Source of the DNA: Puniceicoccaceae bacterium K14
GTDB lineage: Bacteria; Verrucomicrobiota; Verrucomicrobiia; Opitutales; Opitutaceae
Assembly: GCA_022538095.1 (NCBI GenBank)
Contig: JAKYXN010000041.1
Location: forward strand, 1 to 47,295
DNA: 47,295 nt
Direction: 5' to 3'
Shown here: one piece after another, positions 6,785-25,008 of the stretch
Layout: each line of letters opens with the position of its first letter
Position numbering within the stretch: the stretch's first letter is position 1
Translations under genes and position numbers: made by a program
The notes under the pieces: model-generated
Seen by the model: the letters and a program-made list of their open reading frames with translations, nothing else
What the model was told of the DNA's origin: nothing
Databases searched by the model: none

Positions 6785-8131
6785 GTGAACTCTCTTACAG
6801 AAGAAATTTCAGTGGATTCGGAAACCGATGCATTAGCAGCCGTGAAAAGCGACTTCCAAGAATACCTAGATATTTTGGATACCGCTCCATCATGGTGGAA
6901 AGACATCAAGAAGTCTGCCTTTGAAGACTACTGTGCCCTTCCCGATCCCAGTCGCAAGGACGAGACCTGGCGCTTTGCCAACCTAAAGGCATGGCGAGGG
7001 ACAAATCCCGAATTTTCCGCAATGCCTTCGATCAGCAATGCCCAGTCATTGATCGAGCGATCGGACCTGATCAAAACGTATTCCGGACAAATCGTCATAG
7101 CAGACAATCAAACGATTCAAGCGGAATCAATCTCGCCTGAATTGAGTGCCAAGGGCGTGGTCTTCACGACTTTGAAGAAAGCCTTGTCCACCCACGGAGC
7201 TCTCATCAAAGACTACTTCATGAAGCAAGAAGTCGATCTCGGATCGGCTAAAGCGGCAAAGCTGCACACCGCATTCTTGGAAAATGGCGTTATTCTTTTC
7301 GTCCCCAAAGGCGTCGAAGTGGAAGACCCATTCATCGTCTACAATTGGGCAACATCCGCTACTGTCCCGTCATTGCCACACACGCTCGTAATCGCGGAAG
7401 ACTTGGCGAAGGTTTCACTAATTGAAGCTCAACTATCAGCCGACGAATCGACACCTTCCTATTCCTGCGGTGTCGGCCACATTTTTGCGGGAGCCAGCTC
7501 CAAGGTTCAGTTGACCGTGCTACAAAATTTCAACGAGCAGTCAGTCGGCACTCAAATCAGTTCCAACATCACCGGAAAAGACGCCCTCGTGAAAACGCTG
7601 AGCGTGAACGTAGGTTGCAAGCAGTACCGCTCTGAAACTCATGGAAAGATCGTAGGCTCGGGCGCCCACGTCGAAATGCTCTCGCTCGCCGTTACCGATA
7701 ACGACCAAGAGATCGACCAACGCACCTTGCAAACGCACGACGCGCCGCACGCCACTTCGGACCTCCTTTTCAAGAACGCCTTAAGGGATAAATCCAAGAC
7801 AATCTTCTCCGGCCTAATTAAGGTAGCAGAACACGCTCAGCAAACGGACGCTTATCAAACAAACCGCAACTTGCTCCTCAGCAGCGATGCGGAAGCGAAT
7901 TCCTTGCCCGGCTTGGAAATCGAAGCCAACGACGTAAAGTGCAGCCACGGTGCGACCACCAGCCAGATCGAGCCAGAAGAGATCTTCTACATGCTGGCTC
8001 GCGGCATCGATCGAGACGCAGCCAACGAGCTCATCGTCAACGGATTCTTCGAAGAGGTGCTCGAACGCATTGATGTCGAAGAATTGGCCGAAAACGTTCG
8101 CCAGCTCATTCGTTCGAAATTTAAAAAGTAA
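6785..8131 (+). CDS. sufD: Fe-S cluster assembly protein SufD
   Basis: SufB-like partner that forms the heteromeric scaffold with SufB and SufC. The 448-residue product starts with GTG (no in-frame ATG fits). The N-terminal region contains DETWRFANLKAW (family signature RxExWKYT/FTNL). The C-terminal beta-helix contains ENGVILFVPKGVEVEDPF, QTDAYQTNRNLLLSSDAEANS, EIEANDVKCSHGAT and FYMLARGIDRDAANELIVNGF, all characteristic of SufD. It starts 31 bases after sufB. Confidence 0.96.
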   Translation: MNSLTEEISVDSETDALAAVKSDFQEYLDILDTAPSWWKDIKKSAFEDYCALPDPSRKDETWRFANLKAWRGTNPEFSAMPSISNAQSLIERSDLIKTYSGQIVIADNQTIQAESISPELSAKGVVFTTLKKALSTHGALIKDYFMKQEVDLGSAKAAKLHTAFLENGVILFVPKGVEVEDPFIVYNWATSATVPSLPHTLVIAEDLAKVSLIEAQLSADESTPSYSCGVGHIFAGASSKVQLTVLQNFNEQSVGTQISSNITGKDALVKTLSVNVGCKQYRSETHGKIVGSGAHVEMLSLAVTDNDQEIDQRTLQTHDAPHATSDLLFKNALRDKSKTIFSGLIKVAEHAQQTDAYQTNRNLLLSSDAEANSLPGLEIEANDVKCSHGATTSQIEPEEIFYMLARGIDRDAANELIVNGFFEEVLERIDVEELAENVRQLIRSKFKK

Positions 8132-8179
8132 CCTTCTTAACTAGAAATACAAAGCCAGGTTCACCCTGTCGTTGACATT

Positions 8180-8761
8180 ATGCAAACAGAAGAAACTCAA
8201 CAGCGCTCTCTCACCCGAGAAGTCGAAGCGGTACAAATTCCTAGTGGCGATCCCGTCCAGCTTCCTGCCCTTTCAAAAGTCTATATCACGCAACAGCTCG
8301 GCGGTAGCTACACGGTGATGACCGACTTCGGCCTAGCTCGCATCGAAGGACGCGACGCCGATGCACTGGGAGCGGATATTGCGAATCAACGCCAAGAAGA
8401 GGAAGCCCAAGCTGCCGAAGAAAAGAAGGCTCAGCCAAGTGGTATCGAACCAGACGAAGAAGCGATCTGGACTGGCCTCCGCAACGTCTACGATCCAGAA
8501 ATCCCGGTTAACATCGTCGACCTCGGACTCGTCTACTCCATGACAGTTTCCCCAACGGAAGACGGCGGCTACGGAGTAGAAATTCAAATGACTCTCACAG
8601 CTCCTGGCTGTGGGATGGGACCTGCCATTGCCGAAGATGCCAAAAGCAAAGTAATGCTTGTTCCCGGAGTCGACGCAGCCGAAGTAAATCTCGTTTGGGA
8701 GCCAGCTTGGGATCAAAGCATGATCAGCGAAGAAGGCCGCATGATCCTCGGCTTGGTTTAA
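8180..8761 (+). CDS. sufT: SufT-like Fe-S maturation protein (MIP18/DUF59 family)
   Basis: A 193-residue protein with an N-terminal extension (residues 1-85, including LPALSKVYITQQLGGSYTV) and a C-terminal MIP18-family domain: DPEIPVNIVDLGLVY and TAPGCGMGP, with the conserved Cys. This N-extended arrangement is the one called SufT, an auxiliary factor in cluster maturation or transfer. Last gene of the suf block; no cysteine desulfurase (sufS) or sufU follows here, so sulfur delivery must be encoded elsewhere. A 140-base gap with no clear hairpin separates it from clpP. Confidence 0.9.
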   Translation: MQTEETQQRSLTREVEAVQIPSGDPVQLPALSKVYITQQLGGSYTVMTDFGLARIEGRDADALGADIANQRQEEEAQAAEEKKAQPSGIEPDEEAIWTGLRNVYDPEIPVNIVDLGLVYSMTVSPTEDGGYGVEIQMTLTAPGCGMGPAIAEDAKSKVMLVPGVDAAEVNLVWEPAWDQSMISEEGRMILGLV

Positions 8762-8902
8762 ACCAAAGCGAAATCCATCCGATTTTTTGCTGATCAAATA
8801 ATTGTGAATTCGCAAACAAGGGAAATAGAACACAGTTTCCCATTGAATTCCTTGCGATTGCGCACTTCTTAGCTACGTACATTTAACGAATTACAATTTT
8901 CT

Positions 8903-9493
8903 ATGCCCGATAAAAAAGAAGACAAAGAGTCAGAATCATCAGCAGCGCCACAAATCCAAAAGAAGTTTCTGGAGGAGCGCAAAATTTTCCTATGGGGAGA
9001 GGTCAACGATGAATCCTGCAAAGACGTAACCCACAAGCTTCTCTATTTGGAAGCAACAGATCCCGGAAAACCCATCTACTTTTACATCAACACTCCGGGC
9101 GGTTCCGTAACCGCAGGATTGGCAGTGTACGATACAATAAAGCTGATCTCATCCGAAGTGATCGTAATCGTCACCGGGCTCGCCGCCAGCATGGGCTCTA
9201 TCTTACTTTCCGCACCCAAGAAAGGCAACCGCCTACTGTATCCGCATTCCAAGGTCTTGATTCACCAGCCACTCATTGGCGGACGCTTCACCGGTCCAGC
9301 GGTAGACATCCACATCTTCGCTCAAGATATGGAAAAAACACGCGACGAGCTTAACCGCATCCTCTCCGAAGCATCCGGTCAACCGATGGAGAAGATTGTC
9401 GAGGACACAGATCGCGACTTCTATCTCAATGCTCAAGAGGCGATCGAATACGGTCTCGCTGACCGTATAATTGATAGCCTCGACGGCATCTAA
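8903..9493 (+). CDS. clpP: ATP-dependent Clp protease proteolytic subunit
   Basis: Serine peptidase barrel that degrades proteins unfolded by ClpA/ClpX-type partners. The 196-residue product contains INTPGGSVTAGLAVYDT, nucleophile Ser96 in GLAASMGS, His121 in HSKVLIHQP and the Asp of TDRDFYL (about 172), so the triad is complete. There is no clpX or tig beside it, which suggests this may be a ClpP paralogue rather than the main operon copy. A clear terminator follows at 9519-9552. Confidence 0.96.
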   Translation: MPDKKEDKESESSAAPQIQKKFLEERKIFLWGEVNDESCKDVTHKLLYLEATDPGKPIYFYINTPGGSVTAGLAVYDTIKLISSEVIVIVTGLAASMGSILLSAPKKGNRLLYPHSKVLIHQPLIGGRFTGPAVDIHIFAQDMEKTRDELNRILSEASGQPMEKIVEDTDRDFYLNAQEAIEYGLADRIIDSLDGI

Positions 9494-9518
9494 GACCTCA
9501 CTGATAATTTTTACTACT

Positions 9519-9552
9519 AAACGGCAGTCTTCCTAGAAAGGCTGCCGTTTTT
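9519..9552 (+). terminator. Rho-independent terminator after clpP
   Basis: AACGGCAG pairs with CTGCCGTT across a ~14-base loop, and the right arm runs into TTTTT. It lies 26 bases after the clpP stop and insulates clpP from the convergent minus-strand cytochrome operon. Confidence 0.88.
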
Positions 9553-9558
9553 GCATTA

Positions 9559-10485
9559 TCACTGAATGGCCAATCGGTAAGCGAAAGAAAGCGTCGCTGG
9601 CTCATTCAGTTGGATTCTCGCGATTCCCTGATCCTCTGAAAGCTCGTCCACGTAACTACTACTTGAGTTCAACAGTCCATTCTCCCGGACCGCGACGTTT
9701 TCCCAATTCAAATAGTCTATGCTTCGTTGCACATGAATAGACGTTTCAGCCAAAGCGTCATCTACTAAAAACTCGAGTGAATACTGACCGCCGTCATTCA
9801 GTAGTTTTAAATTAGGAGCCAATAGGACCGACTCTTCCTCTCCAAGAACTCTCAAGTAGAATGACTGCTCTTGATACGAAAGCTGAACACCCGATCGACG
9901 CGCTAAGCCAAAGGTTAGCAAATAAACATCCGCAGCTGTGCTATCATCGATTTCCAAAGGCAAGTAGCGTATCTCGGCGGCCTTATCATCCTCAACCTCA
10001 GAATGGATATAATCAAAGGTTGGAGAAATATAAGTAGACTGCACTGTCCAATACTCATCGCCAACATAGCTATATTCCAACTTATTGGCTCGGCTATTTA
10101 CCTGCCCCCCATCCTCTAATCCAACCAAAACTACGGCGTGATCAGCTTCGCCGTCCAACACCTCCACAGGTAAATTAATAGTGGCGCCTGGATCGACATT
10201 CAATACTTCCAGTACCCCAAGAACATTCCCATCAAGCTGAGTGCCTAAATCCAATTGTTCGTCCTGCCCCGGAATTCGCATCAATCCCTCAACTAACATC
10301 CCATCATAAATACCACCCCATGACAATTTACCGGACTGCTCGCTAATGGGCGTACCATGACAAGCAATACACCGACCTCCAATCTCTGCTCCGTACTCAG
10401 GCAAAGCATTTGTGATGAGGCACGAATTCAAAGTGCCTACAGCAAACAGTAACACTTTAAAAAATCTTCTATTTCTGGCTACCAT
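9559..10485 (-). CDS. Exported monoheme (CIACH) protein with a long beta-rich domain
   Basis: About 308 residues: a signal peptide (MVARNRRFFKVLLFAVGTL, ending near NALPEYG), then one heme-c motif C-I-A-C-H ~30 residues in, then ~250 residues of beta-rich sequence without further Cys pairs. The start at 10485 is supported by GGAGGA nine bases upstream and overlaps the previous gene by 17 bases, so the two are probably translationally coupled. Last gene of a minus-strand set with an octaheme cytochrome and an MtrB-like barrel, which suggests an envelope electron-transfer role. I do not recognise the beta-rich part; it may be a surface or extracellular domain. Confidence 0.6.
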   Translation of the reverse strand: MVARNRRFFKVLLFAVGTLNSCLITNALPEYGAEIGGRCIACHGTPISEQSGKLSWGGIYDGMLVEGLMRIPGQDEQLDLGTQLDGNVLGVLEVLNVDPGATINLPVEVLDGEADHAVVLVGLEDGGQVNSRANKLEYSYVGDEYWTVQSTYISPTFDYIHSEVEDDKAAEIRYLPLEIDDSTAADVYLLTFGLARRSGVQLSYQEQSFYLRVLGEEESVLLAPNLKLLNDGGQYSLEFLVDDALAETSIHVQRSIDYLNWENVAVRENGLLNSSSSYVDELSEDQGIARIQLNEPATLSFAYRLAIQ

Positions 10486-10843
10486 CTGAATTTTCCTCCG
10501 TCTTGAACTCTCTGATAAAGGCAACTAAACTATCGATTTCTTCTTCCGAAAGAATCCCGTTGAAAGGGATCATCCGCATCACGCCACGATCGTCTGTGCT
10601 TCCGTTCTGTATTTGATTTTTTAGGTCTTCATCGCTTCGAAGAGCTTGAAAATCCTCCGTTGTTAAATCGACAACATTGAGTGCTTTGCCGATTGAGGTT
10701 CTTCCCTTACCGTCATTTCCATGACAGCTTGCGCATTGTATTTTCCAGATTTTAGTTGCGCTGCTTGGTTTCGCGAGCAGCGCGCACTGGCAAGTAAAGG
10801 TAGTTGCAAGAAACAGCAATAAGACTCTTTTAAATTTCCTCAT
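10469..10843 (-). CDS. Small periplasmic class-I cytochrome c
   Basis: A 124-residue exported cytochrome: signal peptide (MRKFKRVLLLFLATTF), heme site C-A-S-C-H followed by GNDGKG, and a distal Met in VMRMIPFNG that can act as the sixth ligand. The C-terminal helix LSEEEIDSLVAFIREF is typical of class-I monoheme cytochromes. It starts 13 bases after the MtrB-like gene and overlaps the next monoheme gene. The likely role is to shuttle electrons in the periplasm to or from the multiheme protein encoded at the head of the operon. Confidence 0.88.
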   Translation of the reverse strand: MRKFKRVLLLFLATTFTCQCALLAKPSSATKIWKIQCASCHGNDGKGRTSIGKALNVVDLTTEDFQALRSDEDLKNQIQNGSTDDRGVMRMIPFNGILSEEEIDSLVAFIREFKTEENSDGSQK

Positions 10844-10856
10844 GTTCTATTACAGG

Positions 10857-12956
10857 TTAAAACTTTTTGCGATACCCCAGATAGACCTGATTAGCTGTGT
10901 AATCTAAATGATCAGCGTACGCTTCGTCACGTGAGTGCTCATAAACGTATCCAATATTTAGATCTGTTTCTTCCCCCAACGGGAGGTTATACATTATGTT
11001 CACAGTTCGTTCCGCCAACAAACTCCCATAAGGCGTCGACACCTCGGAATTATCGCGATAACTATCGATATCCAAACTAGATAAAGTCAGTTGTAGACTC
11101 GTTTCATTTTTAAAAACATAATTACCCGAGATACTAGTATACCAGGAACTATTATCTACAGCTGGAACGAGCGATTCCACAGAGCCTTCCAAAAGATTAG
11201 CAGGCGTTTCGAAATCATAGCCCGAGTAGTAAGCAAGGAGGTTAATTTGACAACGAGAAGACAGTGTCCAGAAAACCGACTGACTTATATTTCGTTCACT
11301 GCAAGTTCCACTTTCGATAAAATCGGATTCAATTCCTAGCGTATCTAAATCGTAGTTAGAGAAACCAATTAGAGTCGAAAATCTTAGCGAATTGTGAGCT
11401 TTCCAATTTAATGATGCGCTACCTTTTACTTCCGTTTTTTCATGCTGCAAAAGGTAGTTCGGGTACTCCATCCGGCTGCTTACTTCGCTTTCACGGAGAA
11501 TTGGATCATATTGGTTCTTCTTTTCCGTCAACCTGCAACGAGCACTAAAAAACAAGCCCCTTGCAATCATCCAATTCCCACCCAACGTAACCTTTCTTTC
11601 ATTACGCGTATAATCGTTTTCTCGCGCGATTTGCAATTCCCTATCCTCGACTACAGGCGTAACCTCATTACCATAATAGTTCTCTCGAATGTATCCATCC
11701 CCTCCTGATACCTCAGCTCTAAGGTACAATTTAAGTGGATCCCATTTCGAATACCTCAACTCAAGTTGGCCGGATAATTCGTCATAGTCATCCTCGCTTG
11801 CCCCGTCTCGATTCGACTCTAAACCTTCAAAGTCTAAGCTACCCGAAATTCGTGTGATTCCTGTTTCAATGAAGTCTGAGTAACTACTACTCGACACCTT
11901 CGAGAGTTGCCCCGCAATCAACAAACGCCAGTACTTGTTTAAGCGGATCAAAACGTTGAGATTCGACAAGTATTTTTCCAAATCGGAATTCCCCACCAGG
12001 TCAACAAAACCGTTATCATCGACCAATCGATTTCCCACTTCTGAACTGTAGGGAGAGTCAAATGCATCTCCATATATCCGGCTCCCAGAAAAGTCACTAG
12101 AGAAGTCATAATAGGAGGAGGCTAGTGACAAACGAACCCTATCTTGCCACAAGCTCTTTGTATCTATTTTGAACCTTGCATAGTCCGCTTTAGAATCAGC
12201 GACTTCCGTTTGAGCCACCTTTCTATTCGACTCTTCTTCAGATGGAGCACGGTCTAAGTATCGAATCTCATTAGTCGCAGTTTCCTCATGGCCATAGGCT
12301 AAATCGAAATCAAGTCGCCCTACAGCCTGCGTCAACCCCAACTCAAGTCGGTCAGAGGTTTCATCCACTTGGATCACAGAAGGTACGATTCCCCTCCTCA
12401 CTCCAGTGGCGGGCCTACTCTGATTATTCTCAGTCCAAATCGTTGAACCTTTTTCCCCTTCTCTACTACTTCTTTGATAACGAAATTGCACTTCAGGAAG
12501 GCCTTCTCTTAGTAATTTTGTGGATACAGATAAATACTCCGTATCCATTTTCATAACATTGTCCGACCATTCATACAACTCGTCCGTATCAGAGAGATAG
12601 GACCCAACAGGATAATCAAAGGTCGAAAAGGTCCGAAAAGTTAAGGCGAACTCGCCCCAATCATAATGATCGAACTCTATTTCGATATCGTTCTCATCAG
12701 TTCCAAGCTCAAAATCTCCGTCAAATTTAAACTCTAGGCCGCTATCAAACTCTTCAGTAAATTCGATTCCAAAGCGAGACGTAAAAGGTTCTTCGGCAGA
12801 TCCGTTTCGTTCGTAGTACGCAGCTTCGTTTCCATCAATAGAAATGAAGCTCGTCTCTACCTCCACCCTCTCAACATTTATGCCAAGTACAGGAAGCACA
12901 ATACATGAAAGAGCTCCGAAACAAAAGAGCGTATCTCGATTTCTATTCAACCTCAT
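10857..12956 (-). CDS. MtrB/PioB-like outer-membrane beta-barrel of a porin-cytochrome complex
   Basis: A 699-residue exported barrel with a signal peptide (MRLNRNRDTLFCFGALSC, then VLPVLG). It has repeated amphipathic strands with acidic turns (DELSGQLELRYSKW, LGGNWMIARGLFFSARCRL) and a C-terminal Phe (YLGYRKKF). The size is close to MtrB (~700). It follows an octaheme MtrA/DmsE-like gene by only four bases, the arrangement seen in Mtr/Pio/Pcc conduits, where the barrel sheathes the multiheme wire. The CXXC near the N-terminus of Shewanella MtrB is not evident. Identification rests on size, strand pattern and gene pairing rather than a diagnostic motif. Confidence 0.72.
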   Translation of the reverse strand: MRLNRNRDTLFCFGALSCIVLPVLGINVERVEVETSFISIDGNEAAYYERNGSAEEPFTSRFGIEFTEEFDSGLEFKFDGDFELGTDENDIEIEFDHYDWGEFALTFRTFSTFDYPVGSYLSDTDELYEWSDNVMKMDTEYLSVSTKLLREGLPEVQFRYQRSSREGEKGSTIWTENNQSRPATGVRRGIVPSVIQVDETSDRLELGLTQAVGRLDFDLAYGHEETATNEIRYLDRAPSEEESNRKVAQTEVADSKADYARFKIDTKSLWQDRVRLSLASSYYDFSSDFSGSRIYGDAFDSPYSSEVGNRLVDDNGFVDLVGNSDLEKYLSNLNVLIRLNKYWRLLIAGQLSKVSSSSYSDFIETGITRISGSLDFEGLESNRDGASEDDYDELSGQLELRYSKWDPLKLYLRAEVSGGDGYIRENYYGNEVTPVVEDRELQIARENDYTRNERKVTLGGNWMIARGLFFSARCRLTEKKNQYDPILRESEVSSRMEYPNYLLQHEKTEVKGSASLNWKAHNSLRFSTLIGFSNYDLDTLGIESDFIESGTCSERNISQSVFWTLSSRCQINLLAYYSGYDFETPANLLEGSVESLVPAVDNSSWYTSISGNYVFKNETSLQLTLSSLDIDSYRDNSEVSTPYGSLLAERTVNIMYNLPLGEETDLNIGYVYEHSRDEAYADHLDYTANQVYLGYRKKF

Positions 12957-12960
12957 TTCA

Positions 12961-13779
12961 CTAGTATCTCAATTTAGGGCTAGCGTTTGATCCATGCACC
13001 GCTTCATGGCAGGAAGAGGTCCAGCAAGTGCCTTGAACAAGCTGGAAAAACGAGGCATGCTCTTGACCTCCAATTGCGATGCTATTCGTCCCGATCTCAG
13101 TCATATGACATTGCAAACAAAGGTTCGCATCACGAATACGAAGCATCTTTTCATTGTGCGAACCGTGAGGGTCATGGCAGTTCGCACATCCCTCGCGCAT
13201 CGCTTCATGTTCAAAAACGAATGGACCGGCATGTTCGCTGTGACACTTTAGACAGGCTTCATCCTCGGGCACTTCTCGCATCCTGTAATCGGATACGTTT
13301 TTTTCTTCGTGAAAAGCATGACAATCAACACACCCCACTTTTCCATCTAGTAATGGGTGAGCTCCAGGCATGTTAAATCGAGCTTCTTTGTCTTTGTGAC
13401 ATTGAAAACAAGCCTCAGGATCATTTTTAGGATTGAGGATTTTTTCTGGATCGCCCCCGGAGGTCATATGCAAACTGCCAGCTCCATGACAGGTCTCGCA
13501 CCGACGATCACCCAATGCCTCCACGTGGGAAAAATTTAGATTTCCATGGGCAGACGATTCTAAGCTATGCATAGCGTCTATATGGCAAATCAAACATTGA
13601 TCTGACCCAATAGCAGTGGCCCCTTCCACTCCAATCGGTCGAGAATAAAGATCCTCTTCAAACGTTGCACAAGACACTGAAAACAGAGCAAAGCCAAACA
13701 GACAAAACAAGTACGTAACCAATAATAGGGCACAACTAAAAACAGTTTGGTTACGGCTTATCTTAAGCTTAAGTTTCAT
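12961..13779 (-). CDS. Octaheme c-type cytochrome, MtrA/DmsE-like
   Basis: Seven CXXCH sites are readable in order (CLICH, CETCH, CFQCH, CVDCH, CLKCH, CANCH, CLQCH) plus a C-terminal CWTSSCH (CX4CH) followed by EAVHGSN. That unusual last site, with FVFEHEAM, CANCHDPHGSHNEKML and CLQCH before it, is characteristic of the DmsE/MtrA family, whose members usually carry ten hemes; this one has eight. I chose the ATG at 13779 because MKLKLKISRN and a hydrophobic core form a signal peptide ending in SVSCATF (lipobox-like but imperfect); a longer frame upstream has no export signal. First gene of the operon with the MtrB-like barrel. Confidence 0.9.
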   Translation of the reverse strand: MKLKLKISRNQTVFSCALLLVTYLFCLFGFALFSVSCATFEEDLYSRPIGVEGATAIGSDQCLICHIDAMHSLESSAHGNLNFSHVEALGDRRCETCHGAGSLHMTSGGDPEKILNPKNDPEACFQCHKDKEARFNMPGAHPLLDGKVGCVDCHAFHEEKNVSDYRMREVPEDEACLKCHSEHAGPFVFEHEAMREGCANCHDPHGSHNEKMLRIRDANLCLQCHMTEIGTNSIAIGGQEHASFFQLVQGTCWTSSCHEAVHGSNASPKLRY

Positions 13780-14171
13780 TACGAAAAATGTCGGGTAAAC
13801 ATTAACAATGTTTGCCCATTCGAAAACGGTTCGGGTAAATACTAGGGAGTCGTCAAGAACTGCTCTCTTTCTAAAGAGAACAGCTAGCACCTCAATACAA
13901 TTAAATATTAATTTATCTTTATTTAATTTATTTATCGACACTATTTGACCACTTAATACCAAGCAGAAGCCATGAAATCCTTGCGAACCGCTCACCTATA
14001 TGAGTCTGCCAGCACCGTTCAATGACTCCCTTAAGAAGATAGAGTCCTGTGTCCTTTCTCAGGACAGAAACAAAAGGCTCCACCTATTCGTCACAATCCC
14101 CTGCAAACTAAGCATTTGGGGTATTTATAGTTGCGAAGCCCAAGTGACTCGCCTTCTATCTCCTACCGCAT
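13780..14171. other. Divergent control region between the cytochrome operon and glgM
   Basis: 392 bases without a convincing gene. GGGTAAACAT (13793) and ATGTTTGCCC (13808-13817) form a 10-base dyad just upstream of the octaheme cytochrome start, able to act as an operator or mRNA hairpin. Around 13895-13940 there is a very AT-rich tract (ATTAAATATTAATTTATC) suited to a promoter. No CRP/FNR site was recognised with confidence. Confidence 0.4.
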
Positions 14172-17456: not shown

Positions 17457-18668
17457 TCACTGACATTTATTTTTCGCCTCGATCCAGCGACTCATAAACT
17501 CGGTGCTTCGATGCTGATGATGTCTGAGCATCTGACCGATAAAATTCTTTCTGCGTGTATCTGATTTTCGATTAAATGACAACTCGATCGCCTGTCTCAA
17601 TCGCGGTACCCACTTCGATTGATCGAATCGCGACTCTGCAATTGAAAAGCCACAGTCACGAACGTTTTTCCAGAGGGCCTCACTTTCGTACACACTAACA
17701 GCTGTCTTTGCAAACCCTTGAGCATCTTTGTGAATTTCGGTACCCCAGTCCAGTTCACCATTCATTGCTTCTGCCGCAATCGGCGTAACTACACTAGGCA
17801 ACCCCGCGACAAACGCATCCATTAACTTACCTTTTAATCCGGCGCCAAAACGAAGCGGGGCTAAATTAACTCGGTAAGATTTCATAACCTCAGAAACATC
17901 AGCTGCTCGACCCTTTACTCGAATCCCTCTCTTCGCATTGTCCAATTGATACACCTTGTCAGTCGCATAAGACCCATAGATATGCAGTTCAGCATCGTCG
18001 ATTCTTTGCTTGATAAGGGGCCAGATTTCACGACAGCACCATTGAACCGCGTCCCAGTTTGGCTCGTGCAAAAAACTGCCAATCATCATAAAATTCTGAC
18101 GTTCACTGTATCGCGAAGTTTTTCCGTTCGTCATATCCGCAAAAAAAGGACAATAAGCTAGCAAACCGCTGTCTATTCCAAAATCTTCCCGTAAGACACT
18201 CATCTCATACTCGGAAATCATTATTGTCAGATCTGAACGATAAATTGAAGCGATCTCGCGCAATGCCGCCTCATTGAATAAATCAAGCGGTTTCCCTGTC
18301 TTTAAACGCCGGTGACGCGCTTCCCTCAAACAATGCAAATCGCTTGTATCCAATACCCTCAAAGCTTCAGGAGCATTTTTCTCTATGCGCCACCCAAATT
18401 GTTCTTCAGTCATGAAGCGGTCGAACAGAACGATATCTGGCTTAAGCTTCTGTATCCAAGAATCAAAGCTCGAATCATTCAGTTCAACCAAAACACTCTC
18501 AATACCTTCTTCTTTTAGGTCTAAACTAAATTCAGAAGGCTGCGCTGCCGTCGCAAAGTGAACCTCCCACCCGAACTCTTTCATCGCAGTGAGCATTTCC
18601 ATCGTTCTCCTACCCGCCGCGCTCGACGCAGGTTCCGGCCAAATTTTTCCTATCAGAAGGGCTCGCAT
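17457..18668 (-). CDS. GT4-like glycosyltransferase
   Basis: A 403-residue GT-B protein. The N-terminal acceptor half starts MRALLIGKIWPEPASSAAGRR with IVLFDRFMTEEQFGWR. The C-terminal half has IGSFLHEPNWDAVQW, then RIRVKGR-like and RFGAGLKGKLMDAFVAGLPSV, the donor-site pattern of GT4/Glyco_trans_1_4 proteins that work on surface polysaccharides or cap glycans. No membrane segment. Isolated, convergent with glgE and 42 bases from the RND operon end. Substrate cannot be read from sequence. Confidence 0.75.
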   Translation of the reverse strand: MRALLIGKIWPEPASSAAGRRTMEMLTAMKEFGWEVHFATAAQPSEFSLDLKEEGIESVLVELNDSSFDSWIQKLKPDIVLFDRFMTEEQFGWRIEKNAPEALRVLDTSDLHCLREARHRRLKTGKPLDLFNEAALREIASIYRSDLTIMISEYEMSVLREDFGIDSGLLAYCPFFADMTNGKTSRYSERQNFMMIGSFLHEPNWDAVQWCCREIWPLIKQRIDDAELHIYGSYATDKVYQLDNAKRGIRVKGRAADVSEVMKSYRVNLAPLRFGAGLKGKLMDAFVAGLPSVVTPIAAEAMNGELDWGTEIHKDAQGFAKTAVSVYESEALWKNVRDCGFSIAESRFDQSKWVPRLRQAIELSFNRKSDTRRKNFIGQMLRHHQHRSTEFMSRWIEAKNKCQ

Positions 18669-18710
18669 AGAAAACGAACCCTCAAGGCCAATTTATCAAA
18701 ATGCAATTCC

Positions 18711-21700
18711 TTACTGCTCAACCAATTCGCGAGTCTCTTCCTCTTCTTCGTGATTTGACTCCTCAGGCAAATTATACAAGCGACAGAATAACAGTCGAAT
18801 ATCCTCGAAGATTAGATTAATAACAGGAACAAGCAGAAGCGTGATAAAAGTCGCAAAAATCACACCCCAGGCCAACGAAATAGCCATAGGAATCAAGAAG
18901 AGGGCCTGCCGGCTCTGTTCAAGCATTAGAGGAAACAAACCAAAAAAGGTAGTTAGCGATGTAAGCAAAATTGGCCGAAACCGTTTTACCCCTGCAACCC
19001 GAACTGCTTCTTGAAGAGGCATGCCCTTCTTCTTCATTTTGTTTATATAATCCACCATCACTAAGCTATCGTTCACAACGACCCCAGAGAGGGCCAACAT
19101 CCCCAATATCGAAAGCATAGTCACTGCTGATGCCGGGTTAACACGATTGAACGCATCTGAAAACGTTGACATAATAGAATGCCCTAACAGAGCTCCAACT
19201 ATACCGAACGGAATCGCTGACATAACAATCAATGGCTGCACATAGCTGCGCAGCGGAATCGCTAACAAGATATAAACAGACGCTAGTACCAAATAAACCC
19301 CATTACGCATCTCAGAATTATTATCCCGGTCTTCAGCAGCTCTTCCCTCCAAACTGTATTTAACACCAGGATACTTCGCAGCTACTCCTGGTAAAAAATT
19401 ATCTACGATATCCGATTGAATTGCCTCTGTATCCACGGTCTCCACATCCGCATCTGCATTCACCCGAATAATCCGGTTCCTATCGATCCGTCGGATAGAA
19501 GGCAGGCTTTTCCCAGGAATGATCTCGGCAACCTCTTCAAAAGGCACTTCGGTCCCTTCTCGCGTACGAATCATCATAGTGTTTAGTGACGCGATCGATC
19601 TTCTTTCACTTTCCGGATACCTGACCATCACTCGCACATCATCTCGTCCGCGTTGGAGACGCTGAGCCTCCGCTCCGAAAAATGCTTGCCGTACCTGCTG
19701 AGCCAAATTTTGCGTCGTCACTCCTAGATAAACCGCTTGCGGCTTTAGCTTGAGCTCAAACTCCTCATTCGCTCGCTCAAACGAGTCTTCAATATCATAC
19801 AGGCCTTCATAGGTCTGCAGCTTTCGTTGTAACTCCGTAGAGAGAGCGACCAAGTCTTCAATTCGAGGACCTTCAAGTTGTATCGAGACTGCGGTACTAC
19901 TCCCTCGACTAAAGGCATAATTCAATTGCTCAGCCTCGGGGACCGGCCCCACTCGGCTTCGCAGTTCCATCACAACATCGCGACTCCCATACTTTAACCC
20001 CGTCTCAATAGCCGGGACCAATTCCAAAACAATCTCTCCTTGCTCCGCGACTCCAGAGGAACCGCCTCGACCACTACCAAATGGCCTCCCTCCAGCCGTT
20101 GCAAAAACGTTCGCTATTACAGTTTGACCAAATTCTTCATTCTTTTCCTTCTTCAAAGCTAACGCATGAGCTTCGATCCGGTCCACATAACTCTGCGTTG
20201 TTTCGTACGTCGTCCCAACGGGCATAGTCAAATTCACATTCACCCGATCATTTGGAATGCGAGGAAACGATTGATAGTTAATGTGCCCACTCGCGATCAT
20301 CGCTAAAAACACACAGAGAATAGCTATAAACGCAGCAGCAGTCGCATACCTAAAATTTAAGCATGTATTCAAAATTGGACGATAAAACTTCAAAATTAAA
20401 GTTTCCAACCCATCCGCAAAAAATCGCTGAAAATTCACAAACCAATTACGCTTGGTCGTTCCTTTTCCCAAACTCGTGCAATGCTTCAAATGCGCTGGCA
20501 AAATTAGCTTCGACTCAATAAGCGAAAACAACAAAACCGGGATTATCACAATAGGAATTTGCTTAAAGAAATTACCTCGAAAACCACTCATTACAGTAAG
20601 TGGATAAAATGCTACCATAGTCGTGAGCACTCCAAAAATAACAGGAACCGCCACCTCCTGCGTTCCTTTTATCGAAGCGTTCAGAGCAGATTGCCCGCTT
20701 TGCATATGTTGAAAGATATTCTCCCCCGTCACAATCGCATCATCTACCACGATTCCCAGCACTAAGATAAAAGCGAACAGAGTTACCAAATTTAATGTAA
20801 CCCCCAAGTAAGGCATCATCCAAAGCGCTCCCGAAAAAGCGATTGGAATACCAAGAGCCACCCAAAACGCCAAGGAGGGGCGCAAGAACAACGAAAGGGT
20901 TATAATCACCAAGAAGAAGCCAGAGATAGCACTGCCTTTCAACGTATCCAATCTTTGGCTAATTCGTTCAGAGTCATCCTGCCAGTAACTAATACTCATC
21001 CCCTCAGGAAGAAGCTCTTGAGTCGCTTTTACATAGTTCTTAATCGTGTCTCCCAATTCGATGATATTCTGAGAGCCAGTGCGATATACGTTTATAGCAA
21101 TCGCCCGCTCTCCATTGTAGCGTGCTACGATCGGAGTTTCGTCGAATCCATCAGTCACCTCGGCGATATCCCCAATTGAGATTCGAGTCCCATCGGCATT
21201 CGTCCGAACAACAATTCTCGAAAACTCATCTTGAGTATACGCCTTCTGAGCTGTTCGAAGGAGAATGTTCCCCCCCTCGGACTTAATACTTCCCGCACTC
21301 AGGTCGATAGAGTGTGTGCGTATCGCCGAAACCACTTCGTCAAAAGTTAGGCCATATTGCTTCAAGGTCTGCTCTGGTATTTCAATCGCGATTTCGTATG
21401 GCCTCACAGCCTTCAAATCTGCAATAGAAACTCCGGGCAATCCCGATACATCGTCGCGTATTTGCTCACCCATACGCTTCAAATCCATCTCGGTCAAATC
21501 ACCGGCCAATACAATTGTAATGGCTCGTTCCAAGCGATCACTTAAACTTACTTGAGGCCGTTCCGCCTCGTCGGGAAACGTATTAATTCCATCAACACGA
21601 TTTTTAATTTCGTCCAAAGCAACACCCAAGTCGTAGGTATCTTCAATAGTCAATGGCACTCTGCCTGAGCTCGAGCTTGCAACGCTTTCCATCTCTTTAA

Positions 21701-21935
21701 GACCTTCGAGATCGTAAACGGCCTCCTCGATTAGAGCTACTATTCCCTCTTCGACTTCCGTAGGAGTAGAACCACGATAACTTACACTCACATTAATCGT
21801 TCGCGATGGGTAATCAGGAAATTCCTGCAAGATTATCTTCGATAGCCCTGTATACAAACCTGAAAGAACAATAATAACCATCAATATATTGGCAGCTACA
21901 CTGTTCCGAGTAAACCAGTCGATTATCTTGTTCAT
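18711..21935 (-). CDS. RND efflux pump inner-membrane permease (HAE-1/AcrB-like)
   Basis: A 1074-residue proton-driven exporter that pumps substrates to a TolC-type channel. It begins MNKIIDWFTRNSVAANILMVI (TM1), has two large periplasmic loops and 12 predicted TM segments. TM4 carries LGIVVDDAIVTGENIF with the paired Asp of the proton relay, and the second half has GVVVNDSLVMVDYI. The start is preceded by AAGGAGAG. It belongs to the broad AcrB/MexF-related family found in environmental bacteria. A long C-terminal acidic tail (EEEEETRELVEQ) follows TM12. Third gene of a minus-strand operon with an OMF and an adaptor. Confidence 0.95.
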   Translation of the reverse strand: MNKIIDWFTRNSVAANILMVIIVLSGLYTGLSKIILQEFPDYPSRTINVSVSYRGSTPTEVEEGIVALIEEAVYDLEGLKEMESVASSSSGRVPLTIEDTYDLGVALDEIKNRVDGINTFPDEAERPQVSLSDRLERAITIVLAGDLTEMDLKRMGEQIRDDVSGLPGVSIADLKAVRPYEIAIEIPEQTLKQYGLTFDEVVSAIRTHSIDLSAGSIKSEGGNILLRTAQKAYTQDEFSRIVVRTNADGTRISIGDIAEVTDGFDETPIVARYNGERAIAINVYRTGSQNIIELGDTIKNYVKATQELLPEGMSISYWQDDSERISQRLDTLKGSAISGFFLVIITLSLFLRPSLAFWVALGIPIAFSGALWMMPYLGVTLNLVTLFAFILVLGIVVDDAIVTGENIFQHMQSGQSALNASIKGTQEVAVPVIFGVLTTMVAFYPLTVMSGFRGNFFKQIPIVIIPVLLFSLIESKLILPAHLKHCTSLGKGTTKRNWFVNFQRFFADGLETLILKFYRPILNTCLNFRYATAAAFIAILCVFLAMIASGHINYQSFPRIPNDRVNVNLTMPVGTTYETTQSYVDRIEAHALALKKEKNEEFGQTVIANVFATAGGRPFGSGRGGSSGVAEQGEIVLELVPAIETGLKYGSRDVVMELRSRVGPVPEAEQLNYAFSRGSSTAVSIQLEGPRIEDLVALSTELQRKLQTYEGLYDIEDSFERANEEFELKLKPQAVYLGVTTQNLAQQVRQAFFGAEAQRLQRGRDDVRVMVRYPESERRSIASLNTMMIRTREGTEVPFEEVAEIIPGKSLPSIRRIDRNRIIRVNADADVETVDTEAIQSDIVDNFLPGVAAKYPGVKYSLEGRAAEDRDNNSEMRNGVYLVLASVYILLAIPLRSYVQPLIVMSAIPFGIVGALLGHSIMSTFSDAFNRVNPASAVTMLSILGMLALSGVVVNDSLVMVDYINKMKKKGMPLQEAVRVAGVKRFRPILLTSLTTFFGLFPLMLEQSRQALFLIPMAISLAWGVIFATFITLLLVPVINLIFEDIRLLFCRLYNLPEESNHEEEEETRELVEQ

Positions 21936-21984
21936 GGTAATTTTCTCTCCTTTTGAATCACTTCAAATTTTCTCAATTCACTAT

Positions 21985-23406
21985 TTAAGATCCAGGACGT
22001 CTCAGCTTTAGCTCGATTCCCTCACCCTCCGCCCAAGAGCGGAGTTCCTGCATCGCCGACCTCATGTCTCCAGAAGCAGAGGCGGCTTCCAATTTCTCTC
22101 TCAAATCGCCTGGAATTACCGTCCCCTTCGGAAGCTGCTTCTCGATGCGTTCCAAAATATTGCCGCCTTGAGAGTTAGCATTGGATGGCCGTCTTCGCTT
22201 GACCTCTTTTTCTTCCTTGTTTTCAGCAGCCGCAACGCTCTCTTCAGGAGTCGCATTCACCTGCCATCCTTCCAAAGCAAACGGCACATATGTTAAGCAA
22301 ACTCGATCGCCCGCGTTCAATCCTCCTTCGATCACTATCACATCGTCATCTTGCCAAGCGATCTCAACTTTCCTGCGCTGCAAATAATTATCGGCATCGA
22401 CGGTGAGTACATTGACATTCTCTCGCAGCAACTTCCTTGGAAGAACAAAAACATTCTCAAGTGTCTTACCCTTAATTGTCGCCTCTACAAACGCGCCCAC
22501 CTTCAACGGAGGACGACCGTCTTTCGTACGCCCATACGGATTTTCAACGTGAGCCACCACAAAAATTTGTCTCGTAGAAGAATTAACAGCCCCCTCACTC
22601 CGCACAATTTTGCCTTCCCACTCGTATTCATCTCTTCCATCTGATGCTCTAAGAATTACTTTAGGTCCGCCTTCAACAGTTGGATCCTCCCCGCGATAAA
22701 TATTCGGCAAATCAAGAAACCCGAACTGAGACGCAGTTAACGGCAATCGGACCTCAGCAAAGTCAACTGCATAGATATCCGCTAATTGCCCACCGGAGCC
22801 AACGTATTGGCCAACATCCACGCTCTTGCTAAGAATTCGCCCAGCATACGGAGCCGTGATACGCGTTCGCTCCAAATTGGTCTCGGCCGTCTTTACCCGA
22901 GCTCGAGCGGCCGCCACCGAAGCCTGAGTTTCTTTTAGTTGGGGCTCTCGCAATACTAGACTGTTAGGTTCTTCATTTGGATTAAGTCGCTTCCAATCCA
23001 ACTTCGCTTGTTCGCTACGAGCCTGTTCTTCGAACAACTGAAGCTTTGCTTGGACAAGATCACCCTCTGCTACGATTAATTCTGTCTCGTAGTCGCTCTT
23101 ATCCAATTCGAGAAGAACATCCCCTTTTTCAAAAAAAGCTCCCTCTTGGAAATTTTCAGAGATCCGAATGACTCTTCCTCTTACTTCAGCGACCAATACG
23201 CTTTGAGTTCGAGCTCGCACTTCCCCTTGCGATTTCAATGTCATATCAAAATCGATTTCTTCCAGAACACGAGTCACCACGCTCGGAGTCGGTGTCTGAA
23301 ATTTTCGCTGACGCGGTTCCTCCTTGGATGAGAGGAAATAATAAACGATCATAGCCGCGATAGCTAAGAACGCGAACGGAAGTGATATTTGCAGAATGCG
23401 CTTCAT
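21985..23406 (-). CDS. RND efflux periplasmic adaptor (membrane fusion protein)
   Basis: A 473-residue MFP with one N-terminal membrane anchor (MKRILQISLPFAFLAIAAMIVYYFL), the lipoyl half-motif VLVAEVRGRVIRISENFQEGAFFEKGDVLLELDKSDYE, an alpha-hairpin rich in Glu/Ala/Arg, and the second lipoyl half ITAPYAGRILSKSVDVGQYVGSGGQL. It links the RND permease to the outer-membrane channel. The last ~80 residues (EEKEVKRRRPSNANS, then a helical Leu/Glu segment) are an extra tail not usual in AcrA. It lies 49 bases upstream of the permease gene. Confidence 0.93.
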   Translation of the reverse strand: MKRILQISLPFAFLAIAAMIVYYFLSSKEEPRQRKFQTPTPSVVTRVLEEIDFDMTLKSQGEVRARTQSVLVAEVRGRVIRISENFQEGAFFEKGDVLLELDKSDYETELIVAEGDLVQAKLQLFEEQARSEQAKLDWKRLNPNEEPNSLVLREPQLKETQASVAAARARVKTAETNLERTRITAPYAGRILSKSVDVGQYVGSGGQLADIYAVDFAEVRLPLTASQFGFLDLPNIYRGEDPTVEGGPKVILRASDGRDEYEWEGKIVRSEGAVNSSTRQIFVVAHVENPYGRTKDGRPPLKVGAFVEATIKGKTLENVFVLPRKLLRENVNVLTVDADNYLQRRKVEIAWQDDDVIVIEGGLNAGDRVCLTYVPFALEGWQVNATPEESVAAAENKEEKEVKRRRPSNANSQGGNILERIEKQLPKGTVIPGDLREKLEAASASGDMRSAMQELRSWAEGEGIELKLRRPGS

Positions 23407-23424
23407 TTGTCGGAAAAAATTGGG

Positions 23425-24834
23425 TTACTCGCTGGGAAATTCAAAACCTCCGCCTAAAGCTAGGTAGAGATCAATGCGGCTTTGTATTCGCTCGTTTGCT
23501 ACTTCAATAAAAGAACTCTGGCTAGAAAGTGACCGCCTCTCAGCATCTAAAACTGTAGTTATATCCGAAAGACCGCGCTTATAATTCGACCAGGCTAACT
23601 CGGTCGCCGCAATCGACTCTTCTTGAGCAATTCTCTGAGCCTCGTAGTCTCGCTTGTAGGAACTTTGCTCATTGAGAGCGTCTTCAACTTCCTTAAACGC
23701 AACTAAAATAGCATCCGCGTAACGAGCCAAACTCGCTTCATAAACGCCTCGCGCTCTAACCACTCCACCTTTCAAACGTGAAGTCGGAAACAAAGGTTGC
23801 GTCAAATCCAAAGCAAGATTCCACACCTTGAACTGTTCATCCAAAAGATCGCTAAACTCACTGCTGCTTGTCCCCGCGCTCCCCGTCAAACTAAAGGTCG
23901 GGAGGTTCGATTTGAATGCCATTTTTTTACGCATCAAATCTGCAGCTAAATCCCTCTCCGCTGACGCTAAATCCGGTCGACGCCACAAAATTTCACTCGG
24001 CAACCCAGCTGGCACCTCCTCTTTTATTTCCGGCAACTCTGTTGCTATCCCTAATTCGTTCGATGGATAACGCCCTAGCAAAATCTCAATGCTACGGACT
24101 CTCGCATCCCGTGACCGAAGTCGCTGTTCATAAGAACTTCTGGCTGACGCTACATTTGCCCGAATCAAGCGAACATCCAATGCCTCCGCGACCCCTCTCC
24201 TAAAATTGTCTTCGACCACTTCGAGGTTTCTCTCAAACGCATCTAACGTTTGCTTTGCTAAGTTTAAAAGTAGTTGGGCTTCAACCGAGTCATACCACAA
24301 ACTAGCTGTAGACGCTGCTAGAGAAAGACGCGCAGCTCTATAATCTTCCACTGACGCCTCCCAATCCGCGATACCCGCTTGCCTCTCGTTCCTAACCCTC
24401 CCCCAAAGGTCCAATTCCCAACTCACTCGAGCCCTTAGACCAAAAGAATCACTATGCGTATCAGAAGTTCCATTATAAGTACGCGAACCACTCGGATTCA
24501 AAGTAACCTGTGGATAAACACCAATTCCCGCTTGGATAGCCGCCCCCCTAGCCTGCTCCAATGCAGCGGCCGAAGCTTTCAAATCGTAGTTATTCTCCAA
24601 GGCTTCTTTTATAAGCGAGTCCAAAGTCATATCCGACAAATCAGCCAGCCATGAATTCGTATCTACTTCGCCCGTAATCGCTTCGCTCTGCCAAGCCAAC
24701 GGAGCATCCACATCCACGGAGGAAGATTGGTTCTGAGGAGAGGTCGCACAGCCAGCCAAAAGGGCAATCGCCCCTAAACCCGCTAAGACGCAAACGTTTT
24801 TAGAATCGTTTAGAAAAGGGAATACAAATCTCAT
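23425..24834 (-). CDS. TolC-family outer-membrane efflux lipoprotein (NodT type)
   Basis: About 469 residues with a lipoprotein signal peptide ending LLAGC-ATSPQ. Two OMF repeats are visible, with LDSLIKEALENNYDLKASAAALEQARGAAIQAG and a second LPSEILWRRPDLASAERDLAAD (the ...RRPDL/I...AE pattern of NodT/OprM proteins). It forms the outer-membrane exit duct for the adaptor and permease encoded 18 and ~1500 bases downstream. I chose ATG 24834; the frame can be read six codons further to a TTG. First gene of the operon, so the promoter should lie in 24840-25000. Confidence 0.93.
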   Translation of the reverse strand: MRFVFPFLNDSKNVCVLAGLGAIALLAGCATSPQNQSSSVDVDAPLAWQSEAITGEVDTNSWLADLSDMTLDSLIKEALENNYDLKASAAALEQARGAAIQAGIGVYPQVTLNPSGSRTYNGTSDTHSDSFGLRARVSWELDLWGRVRNERQAGIADWEASVEDYRAARLSLAASTASLWYDSVEAQLLLNLAKQTLDAFERNLEVVEDNFRRGVAEALDVRLIRANVASARSSYEQRLRSRDARVRSIEILLGRYPSNELGIATELPEIKEEVPAGLPSEILWRRPDLASAERDLAADLMRKKMAFKSNLPTFSLTGSAGTSSSEFSDLLDEQFKVWNLALDLTQPLFPTSRLKGGVVRARGVYEASLARYADAILVAFKEVEDALNEQSSYKRDYEAQRIAQEESIAATELAWSNYKRGLSDITTVLDAERRSLSSQSSFIEVANERIQSRIDLYLALGGGFEFPSE

Positions 24835-25008
24835 TCGGAAAATAGATAGCAATAGCTTTCATTCAACCACCTGTTAAACGCTACCAACTCGCGAACGGTT
24901 ACACCATTTAACATGCCAAAGATAAAGACCTTCCTGTCATAAAAGCCAGCTAGCAGGTTCAGGCCTCTAGTCTGCTTGCATTTCGCTCACAGCCCGACGC
25001 CTGCAAAT

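Follow-up and report, generated by a model that had tools for sequence, protein, structure and literature searches.

Porin-cytochrome gene pairs have been described in Verrucomicrobia before. In six verrucomicrobial metagenome-assembled genomes (MAGs), He et al. 2017 found an eight-heme cytochrome encoded beside a porin, the latter with 20 or more transmembrane motifs. They named homologues in Opitutus terrae and others, and stated an extracellular multiheme gene in the cluster for several cases only (PMC5615132). The pairs were judged not to be homologous to the systems of Shewanella and Geobacter, and the cytochromes were regarded as periplasmic (PMC5615132). Verrucomicrobia were again reported to have putative porin-cytochrome genes that show no significant homology to those known (PMC6344600), so this kind of conduit is already known. 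Here we analyze a four-gene operon in contig JAKYXN010000041.1 of Puniceicoccaceae bacterium K14 (assembly GCA_022538095.1; the entire stretch of 47,295 nucleotides is referred to as the window). The operon very probably encodes a trans-outer-membrane electron conduit of the Mtr (porin-cytochrome) type. It shares with the cluster of He et al. 2017 a porin (26 strands, at least 20 being required there) beside an octaheme gene, with a gap of 4 bases between the two. In comparison, the pair in the window is MtrAB-like by sequence and fold, its cytochrome looks lipid-anchored, and its cluster has no extracellular multiheme gene.

The assignment is supported by the MtrB fold of the barrel, the MtrA homology of the cytochrome, the conservation of the pair, and published precedents for the gene pair (PMC5615132) and for the mechanism in MtrAB (PMC7198977). 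The features of the operon are as follows.

12961..13779, minus strand: octaheme c-type cytochrome, a wire of the MtrA type and probable lipoprotein, 272 residues from the ATG at 13779
13669..13671, minus strand: codon of the lipobox-like Cys37 (numbered from the ATG), context FSVSC, 25 residues before heme 1
12964..13026, minus strand: C-terminal CX4CH eighth heme site and HGSN tail of the octaheme protein (CWTSSCHEAVHGSN...)
10857..12956, minus strand: outer-membrane beta-barrel of predicted MtrB fold with 26 strands, 699 residues, C-terminus RKKF
12804..12827, minus strand: predicted helix, barrel residues 44-51, between strands 1 and 2 of the model, in the place of the MtrB channel-capping helix
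10469..10843, minus strand: exported class-I monoheme cytochrome c, 124 residues
10721..10735, minus strand: CASCH heme site of the monoheme cytochrome, from the sequence
9559..10485 (longest open reading frame to 10524), minus strand: exported one-heme protein with no assigned family (the CIACH protein), 308 residues
10357..10371, minus strand: CIACH heme site of this fourth protein, from the sequence

The four open reading frames (ORFs) are arranged head to tail on the minus strand, in the order octaheme, barrel, monoheme, and CIACH protein, and are flanked by a clpP-like gene (as we read its ORF) and a glycosyltransferase gene. The longest ORF for the octaheme gene begins at 13995, and the ATG at 13779 was used. 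The barrel and monoheme genes are separated by 13 bases. For the CIACH gene, the ATG at 10485 is the more likely start: it is preceded by GGAGG, gives 308 residues instead of 321, and results in an overlap of 17 bases with the monoheme gene. The gene order, heme counts, gaps, and overlap are as described in the original prediction, which was made from the letters of the DNA alone. The same holds for its octaheme with seven CXXCH sites followed by a CX4CH site (in CWTSSCHEAVHGSN), its 699-residue barrel ending in Phe, and its class-I monoheme, which matches Pfam Cytochrome_CBB3 with an E value of 3.5e-11. In 20,000 residue shuffles of the octaheme protein, the number of CXXCH motifs averaged 0.1 and never exceeded 3, compared to the 7 observed. 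Promoter and terminator scans gave scores below the shuffled means. A set of 55 loci, the window included, was assembled for comparison, and a same-strand ORF of at least 500 residues directly follows the octaheme gene in 53 of them; the barrel is called here by position, strand, and length, not by homology.

The barrel of Shewanella MtrB has four shorter strands at its beginning, 22 further strands, and a channel-capping helix between strands 1 and 2 (PMC7198977). The AlphaFold2 model of the window barrel, calculated with an alignment of 26 related sequences, has a predicted local distance difference test score (pLDDT) of 83.8 and a predicted template modeling score (pTM) of 0.79. By manual count the model contains 26 strands of at least 10 residues. 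Its first four strands are short (15, 12, 11, and 10 residues), and the helix at residues 44-51 is predicted between the first two of them. A Foldseek search with this model finds chain B of PDB entry 6r2q as the top match (E = 8e-15, TM score 0.61 by query; runner-up E = 1.6e-9). The same chain is aligned by VIA-align over 568 residues at 4.0 Å with a Z score of 23.0 (17.6 for the runner-up). Computation thus supports an MtrB fold with 26 strands. At the sequence level, the window barrel has no Pfam or NCBIfam family over cut-off, and PDB sequences contain no match to it at E ≤ 1. When the barrel alignment was used as a profile against PDB sequences, the only matches were weak ones at the fused heme domain that some relatives carry (see below). 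Of the 26 related barrels, 5 match Pfam MtrB_PioB (PF11854), with a best E value of 9.7e-7.

The octaheme protein is related to the second component of the same complex. Its phmmer match to chain 6r2q_A has an E value of 3.7e-30; the identification of this chain as MtrA comes from PMC7198977 and from the title of the entry ('Structure of the Mtr complex'), the label in the search having read cystathionine beta-synthase. When aligned with the decahemes of three related loci (L057, L060, and L062), the octahemes are without the heme pair 3-4. The spacings between sites 3-8 of the window protein (26, 26, 22, 23, and 31 residues) follow those between sites 5-10 of the L057 decaheme (26, 24, 22, 23, and 33). 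The sequence comparison therefore supports a homologue of decaheme MtrA that is missing hemes 3 and 4. With eight hemes, the window protein does not have the ten that define the MtrA/DmsE family. This number had been considered unusual in the original prediction, and it is instead the norm of the verrucomicrobial family, as in He et al. 2017: CX4CH is the last heme site in 53 of the 55 octahemes, the exceptions being those of L043 and L056 with a terminal CXXCH, and the same holds for 12 of 13 octahemes from a set fetched later. The porin-cytochrome reading of the MtrA/MtrB type, proposed there as well, is borne out by the octaheme sequence and by the barrel fold. A second, divergent octaheme gene at L120 (G402:C40) has eight CXXCH sites and no CX4CH, keeps the lipobox-like Cys, and has no barrel match adjoining it.

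With Shewanella MtrAB(C), the window pair has in common the 26-strand barrel, the short first strands, the helix after strand 1, and a homologous wire. It differs in having eight hemes instead of ten, a lipobox-like Cys, a CX4CH site at the end, and a monoheme partner, and in having no MtrC (6r2q; PMC7198977). The OmbB-OmaB-OmcB system of Geobacter also has a porin with an eight-heme cytochrome and a varying surface partner (PMC4245776, PMC6148476). It is described as having no sequence similarity to MtrCAB (PMC6148476), whereas the window octaheme is MtrA-like; this system was compared by its description only. The clusters PCC3 and PCC4 resemble the window in being porin-cytochrome gene clusters proposed from gene order (PMC5566968). 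By their descriptions they are set apart, PCC3 by very large multiheme cytochromes (medians of 34 and 21 sites) and an inner-membrane protein, and PCC4 by three periplasmic multiheme cytochromes (PMC5566968). A further parallel is with the PioAB and MtoAB pairs. These have a decaheme wire, and the partner is a high-potential iron-sulfur protein of the PioC type, in comparison to the monoheme cytochrome in the window. PioAB and MtoAB share with the window a barrel and a wire without an extracellular multiheme cytochrome (PMC6344600).

Eight hemes and a CX4CH site also resemble soluble periplasmic reductases of the nitrite, tetrathionate, or hydroxylamine type, in which case the barrel would be an ordinary porin. 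Membership in a soluble octaheme family had been named beforehand as one of the outcomes that would overturn the conduit assignment. It was looked for in Pfam and NCBIfam and did not appear, the nitrite side giving only weak matches of the NrfB and NrfH types below cut-off. The best families are the decaheme conduit families DmsE and GSU2203, the best PDB match is 6r2q_A, the barrel is MtrB-like, and the octaheme-barrel pair is conserved. A soluble octaheme reductase is rejected on these family and fold matches, and we consider it highly improbable.

Several observations weigh against a conduit of the Mtr type. The scores of the octaheme protein are under the curated cut-offs for both decaheme families, with 154.2 bits for TIGR03508 (DmsE; cut-off 192.2) and 155.6 bits for NF041028 (GSU2203; cut-off 325). 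The window barrel does not match MtrB_PioB, no Pfam family being found at E ≤ 0.001. None of the four genes encodes an MtrC-like multiheme partner, and we infer the enclosure of the cytochrome by the barrel from homology and fold. In the window's own genome, the hexaheme found beside the conduit in relatives (see below), used as a query, hits only an NrfH-like place, and a CbcL-like query gave no match in a search run without a positive control. Finally, the end branch of the window octaheme is 1.09 changes per column long, compared to a median of 0.19, so the function of this protein may have shifted.

This long branch, together with the orphan CIACH partner, is what favors an operon that is losing or changing its function in this lineage, with a fast-evolving octaheme and the usual multiheme partner replaced by a one-heme protein. 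On the other hand, the eight heme motifs, the lipobox-like Cys, and all four ORFs are intact, and the barrel models well. We regard such a loss or change as unlikely, and a conduit of the Mtr type remains the preferred assignment.

The octaheme wire itself is probably lipid-anchored in the verrucomicrobial family, judging from its N-terminal sequence. A Cys located 22-27 residues before heme 1 and preceded by Ala, Gly, or Ser is present in all 55 octahemes, the window included, and the residue following it is never Asp. A PROSITE-like lipobox pattern fits 50 of the 55, among them the FSVSC of the window. In the 13 octahemes fetched later, the Cys, the small residue, and the PROSITE-like pattern are found without exception. 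This conservation (55 of 55 and 13 of 13) is the basis for the proposed anchor. Two points weigh against it. Two narrower lipobox patterns, which were tried before the PROSITE-like one and require a larger hydrophobic residue (or Ala/Thr) at position -3, fit 39 and 48 of the 55, and the SVSC of the window fails both. In addition, the call of lipidation depends on the PROSITE-like pattern (after PS51257). The five decaheme wires available as a small control, three checked by script and two by eye (L121 and the second protein of L062), have no lipobox-like site. The decaheme adjoining the L121 wire has LLAAC, as expected of a surface lipoprotein. L121 (1393-6578 of plasmid pDA100 of Photobacterium sp. 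DA100) is an unannotated Mtr-like trio of this LLAAC decaheme, a decaheme wire, and a barrel-like protein of 656 residues, and is the one decaheme relative that the plasmid collection yielded.

In the Shewanella complex, the N-terminus of MtrA projects into the periplasm, heme A1 lies about 20 Å inside the periplasm, and the heme chain spans 80 Å (PMC7198977). With two hemes fewer and a lipid at its N-terminus, the octaheme wire would be expected from this geometry to have a shorter periplasmic projection than MtrA. Provided that the lipid anchor exists, membrane tethering would extend to the wire and not be confined to a surface cytochrome, which would alter how electrons enter the conduit.

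Octahemes of this kind are found at E ≤ 1e-30 in 21 of 387 genomes of the phylum, 16 of them in the same family (both counts include the window's own genome), and barrel matches are found in 26 of 95 genomes, again with its own. The 33 named loci come mostly from Verrucomicrobiota MAGs; three are from Scalindua and one is from Phycisphaerae, and other phyla contribute a few relatives of decaheme size or larger. The relatives were picked by kinship and by the score of the window barrel, and the named loci by peptide patterns from the window octaheme, so both sets lean towards look-alikes. In the octaheme tree, the window protein is placed in the group with heme-free barrels, beside an Opitutales MAG (support 83/91), a placement that is unsure owing to the long branch. 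Two contigs among the loci, L046 and L048, are labeled Akkermansia muciniphila and belong to genomes of about 5.9 and 6.4 Mb. The genome of this species is far smaller, and the label is presumably wrong.

The family shows a structural difference at the N-terminus of the barrel. Barrels of about 795-931 residues carry an N-terminal CXXCH domain in L036, L037, L039, L041-L043, L045-L052, L054, L055, and L059, and those of L043 and L052 carry two N-terminal heme sites. The fused domain is PSCyt1, which is matched by 16 of the 26 aligned barrels, equal to the number of heme-bearing barrels put in. The heme-bearing barrels are MtrB-like barrels fused to a planctomycete-type cytochrome.

The separate monoheme is distributed in the opposite manner. 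At 21 of the 36 loci with a heme-free barrel, the window included, a homologue of the monoheme is encoded within 3 kb of the octaheme gene, on the octaheme strand in 17 cases and on the other strand in four (L078, L079, L082, and L029); among the 15 loci that lack it within this distance, L035, L076, and L083 have one 5.7-7.6 kb away, L022 and L025-L027 have flanks of under 3 kb in both directions, and the upstream flank of L066 is 163 bases. At the loci with a heme-bearing barrel, defined by a CXXCH within the first 220 residues, the fetched stretch holds no such homologue (0 of 17), and short flanks occur here too, for example upstream in L043, L046, and L050 and downstream in L036, L046, and L048. 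L040 and L023, for which no barrel was called, are in neither class. In the octaheme tree, the loci with heme-bearing barrels group as a single clade (99/95; 18 rows, L040 included), so the missing separate monohemes may count as a single event. A genome-wide count, which leaves out L043 and the genome of L040 (which has two), finds a monoheme homologue elsewhere in 5 of 16 genomes with a heme-bearing barrel, compared to 9 of 10 with a heme-free one, and these five weigh against a simple exchange of one form for the other. Fusion at the N-terminus of an outer-membrane barrel would place the heme in the periplasm. By this analogy, the monoheme of the window is suggested to work at the periplasmic mouth of the conduit.

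We propose, with somewhat less than even confidence, that Verrucomicrobiota and some Planctomycetota (Scalindua and a Phycisphaerae MAG) have their own Mtr lineage, with a lipoprotein wire without heme pair 3-4, and that many Verrucomicrobiota use an '8+1' arrangement. In this arrangement, a separate class-I monoheme or a fused PSCyt1 domain would replace the lost periplasmic hemes; no such monoheme or fusion stands beside the Scalindua copies. If correct, the periplasmic reach is shortened and the electron donor or acceptor is fixed at the mouth. Under the main assignment of the window operon as an Mtr-type conduit, the octaheme wire would sit within the barrel, and its heme 8 at the C-terminus would reach the cell surface. 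Its lipidated N-terminus would hold it to the inner leaflet of the outer membrane, with a shorter periplasmic reach than that of MtrA. The class-I monoheme would dock at the periplasmic mouth and exchange electrons with the respiratory chain. The CIACH protein may have an accessory redox or docking role after export, perhaps taking the outer position that is held by multiheme or Reeler-type proteins in relatives.

A phylum-level conduit that was called unrelated in 2017 is tied here to the MtrAB family by fold and sequence. This kinship, the lipobox-like Cys on the wire, and the PSCyt1-barrel fusion in one clade are apparently new. The words 'lipoprotein' and 'fused' do not occur in the main text of He et al. 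2017 (PMC5615132), and 'verrucomicrobi', 'lipoprotein', 'planctomycet', and 'opitut' do not occur in the available text of a survey of Mtr transmission (PMC8805035). In the literature searched, the portions consulted contained no description of an octaheme wire as a lipoprotein, of an MtrB fold for the verrucomicrobial porin, or of the PSCyt1-barrel fusion, which is not proof of absence. Where Mtr profiles fall below cut-off, an octaheme without pair 3-4, a CX4CH as last site, a lipobox-like Cys, and a PSCyt1-barrel fusion may serve as recognition marks. More Verrucomicrobiota may then take part in iron and humic electron cycling.

The CIACH protein is the orphan of the operon. It had been singled out beforehand as unusual, and this description stands: a search of 94 other genomes found no convincing homologue (best E = 0.02), and neither did a search of 386 other genomes of the phylum, where the one match has an E value of 0.0047 over 68 C-terminal residues. 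It has no Pfam or NCBIfam match, NF041895 and PF02014 included, and its single-sequence AlphaFold2 model is unusable (pLDDT 32.5). Three candidate relationships were tried and rejected. As a Reeler or choice-of-anchor V protein, its best BLASTP match with the partners in L052 and L043 has an E value of 0.042 over 12 residues; comparison with the nonaheme of L064 gave nothing convincing by BLASTP; and the likeness of its C-terminus to FYRV or FYRAL ends is weak (E = 0.0047 in one genome, and a 78-residue alignment with E = 0.10).

In relatives, the neighboring slots are occupied by other proteins. Nonahemes are found upstream in L064, L034, and L053, and hexahemes of about 500 residues elsewhere. 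One-heme proteins of the NCBIfam choice-of-anchor V family (NF041895) directly follow the octaheme-barrel pair at L043:3929-4708 and L052:11522-12706, two contigs of one Roseibacillus MAG, and the L043 copy additionally matches Pfam Reeler (PF02014). In Geobacter conduits, the outer component is swapped beside a conserved wire (PMC6148476). Downstream of the pair in L083 (8864-11104), a protein of 746 residues has 13 CXXCH sites and a cytochrome b561-type domain, and is referred to here as CbcL-like (our label). In L081 (9650-14650), the octaheme, barrel, and monoheme genes are followed by those for a NapC/NirT hexaheme, a tetraheme, a DsrO-like Fe-S protein, and a DsrP/NrfD protein, a row that is possibly an inner-membrane quinol module coupled to the conduit.

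We infer that the organism can exchange electrons with extracellular partners. The conduit may mainly send electrons out, using Fe(III) or humic quinones as acceptors in anaerobic respiration. He et al. 2017 put forward this hypothesis for the gene pair, which they studied in a humic lake (PMC5615132). The hexaheme and CbcL-like neighbors in relatives, which suggest quinol as the electron source in those organisms, agree with this direction, and four CbcL/MtoC/MtrH homologues and one ImcH homologue are listed for Verrucomicrobia (PMC6295460). In the window's own genome, however, the only NapC/NirT match over cut-off is NrfH beside NrfA, and there is no CbcL-like match. Outward transfer has, in our estimate, a nearly even chance.

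Alternatively, the conduit may mainly take electrons in, from an extracellular donor such as Fe(II) or reduced humics through the octaheme and the class-I monoheme to a terminal oxidase. The partner in the operon is indeed a class-I monoheme rather than a tetraheme like CymA. Three COX1-family oxidases are encoded in the genome; from their ORFs we read cbb3-like ones, one of them beside genes for alternative complex III, and an aa3-like one. No MtrC-like protein is encoded in the cluster, as in PioAB and MtoAB (PMC6344600). The hexahemes adjacent to the conduit in relatives (NapC/NirT in one scanned copy, L081) and the CbcL-like protein weigh against inward transfer, which we consider possible though rather doubtful.

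Two further multiheme loci are present in the same genome, on contigs C198 and C329. The second of these (L102, G000:C329:3000-21000) encodes at 8048-9592 a protein of 514 residues with ten CXXCH sites and a hydrophobic N-terminal segment. It adjoins a pyridine-nucleotide-disulphide oxidoreductase that has a BFD-like domain, and an ORF that we read as globin-like. Within the window, positions 17457-24852 of the minus strand encode an outer-membrane efflux protein, an HlyD-type adaptor, and an AcrB-type pump, followed by a glycosyltransferase gene, and represent an ordinary efflux operon.

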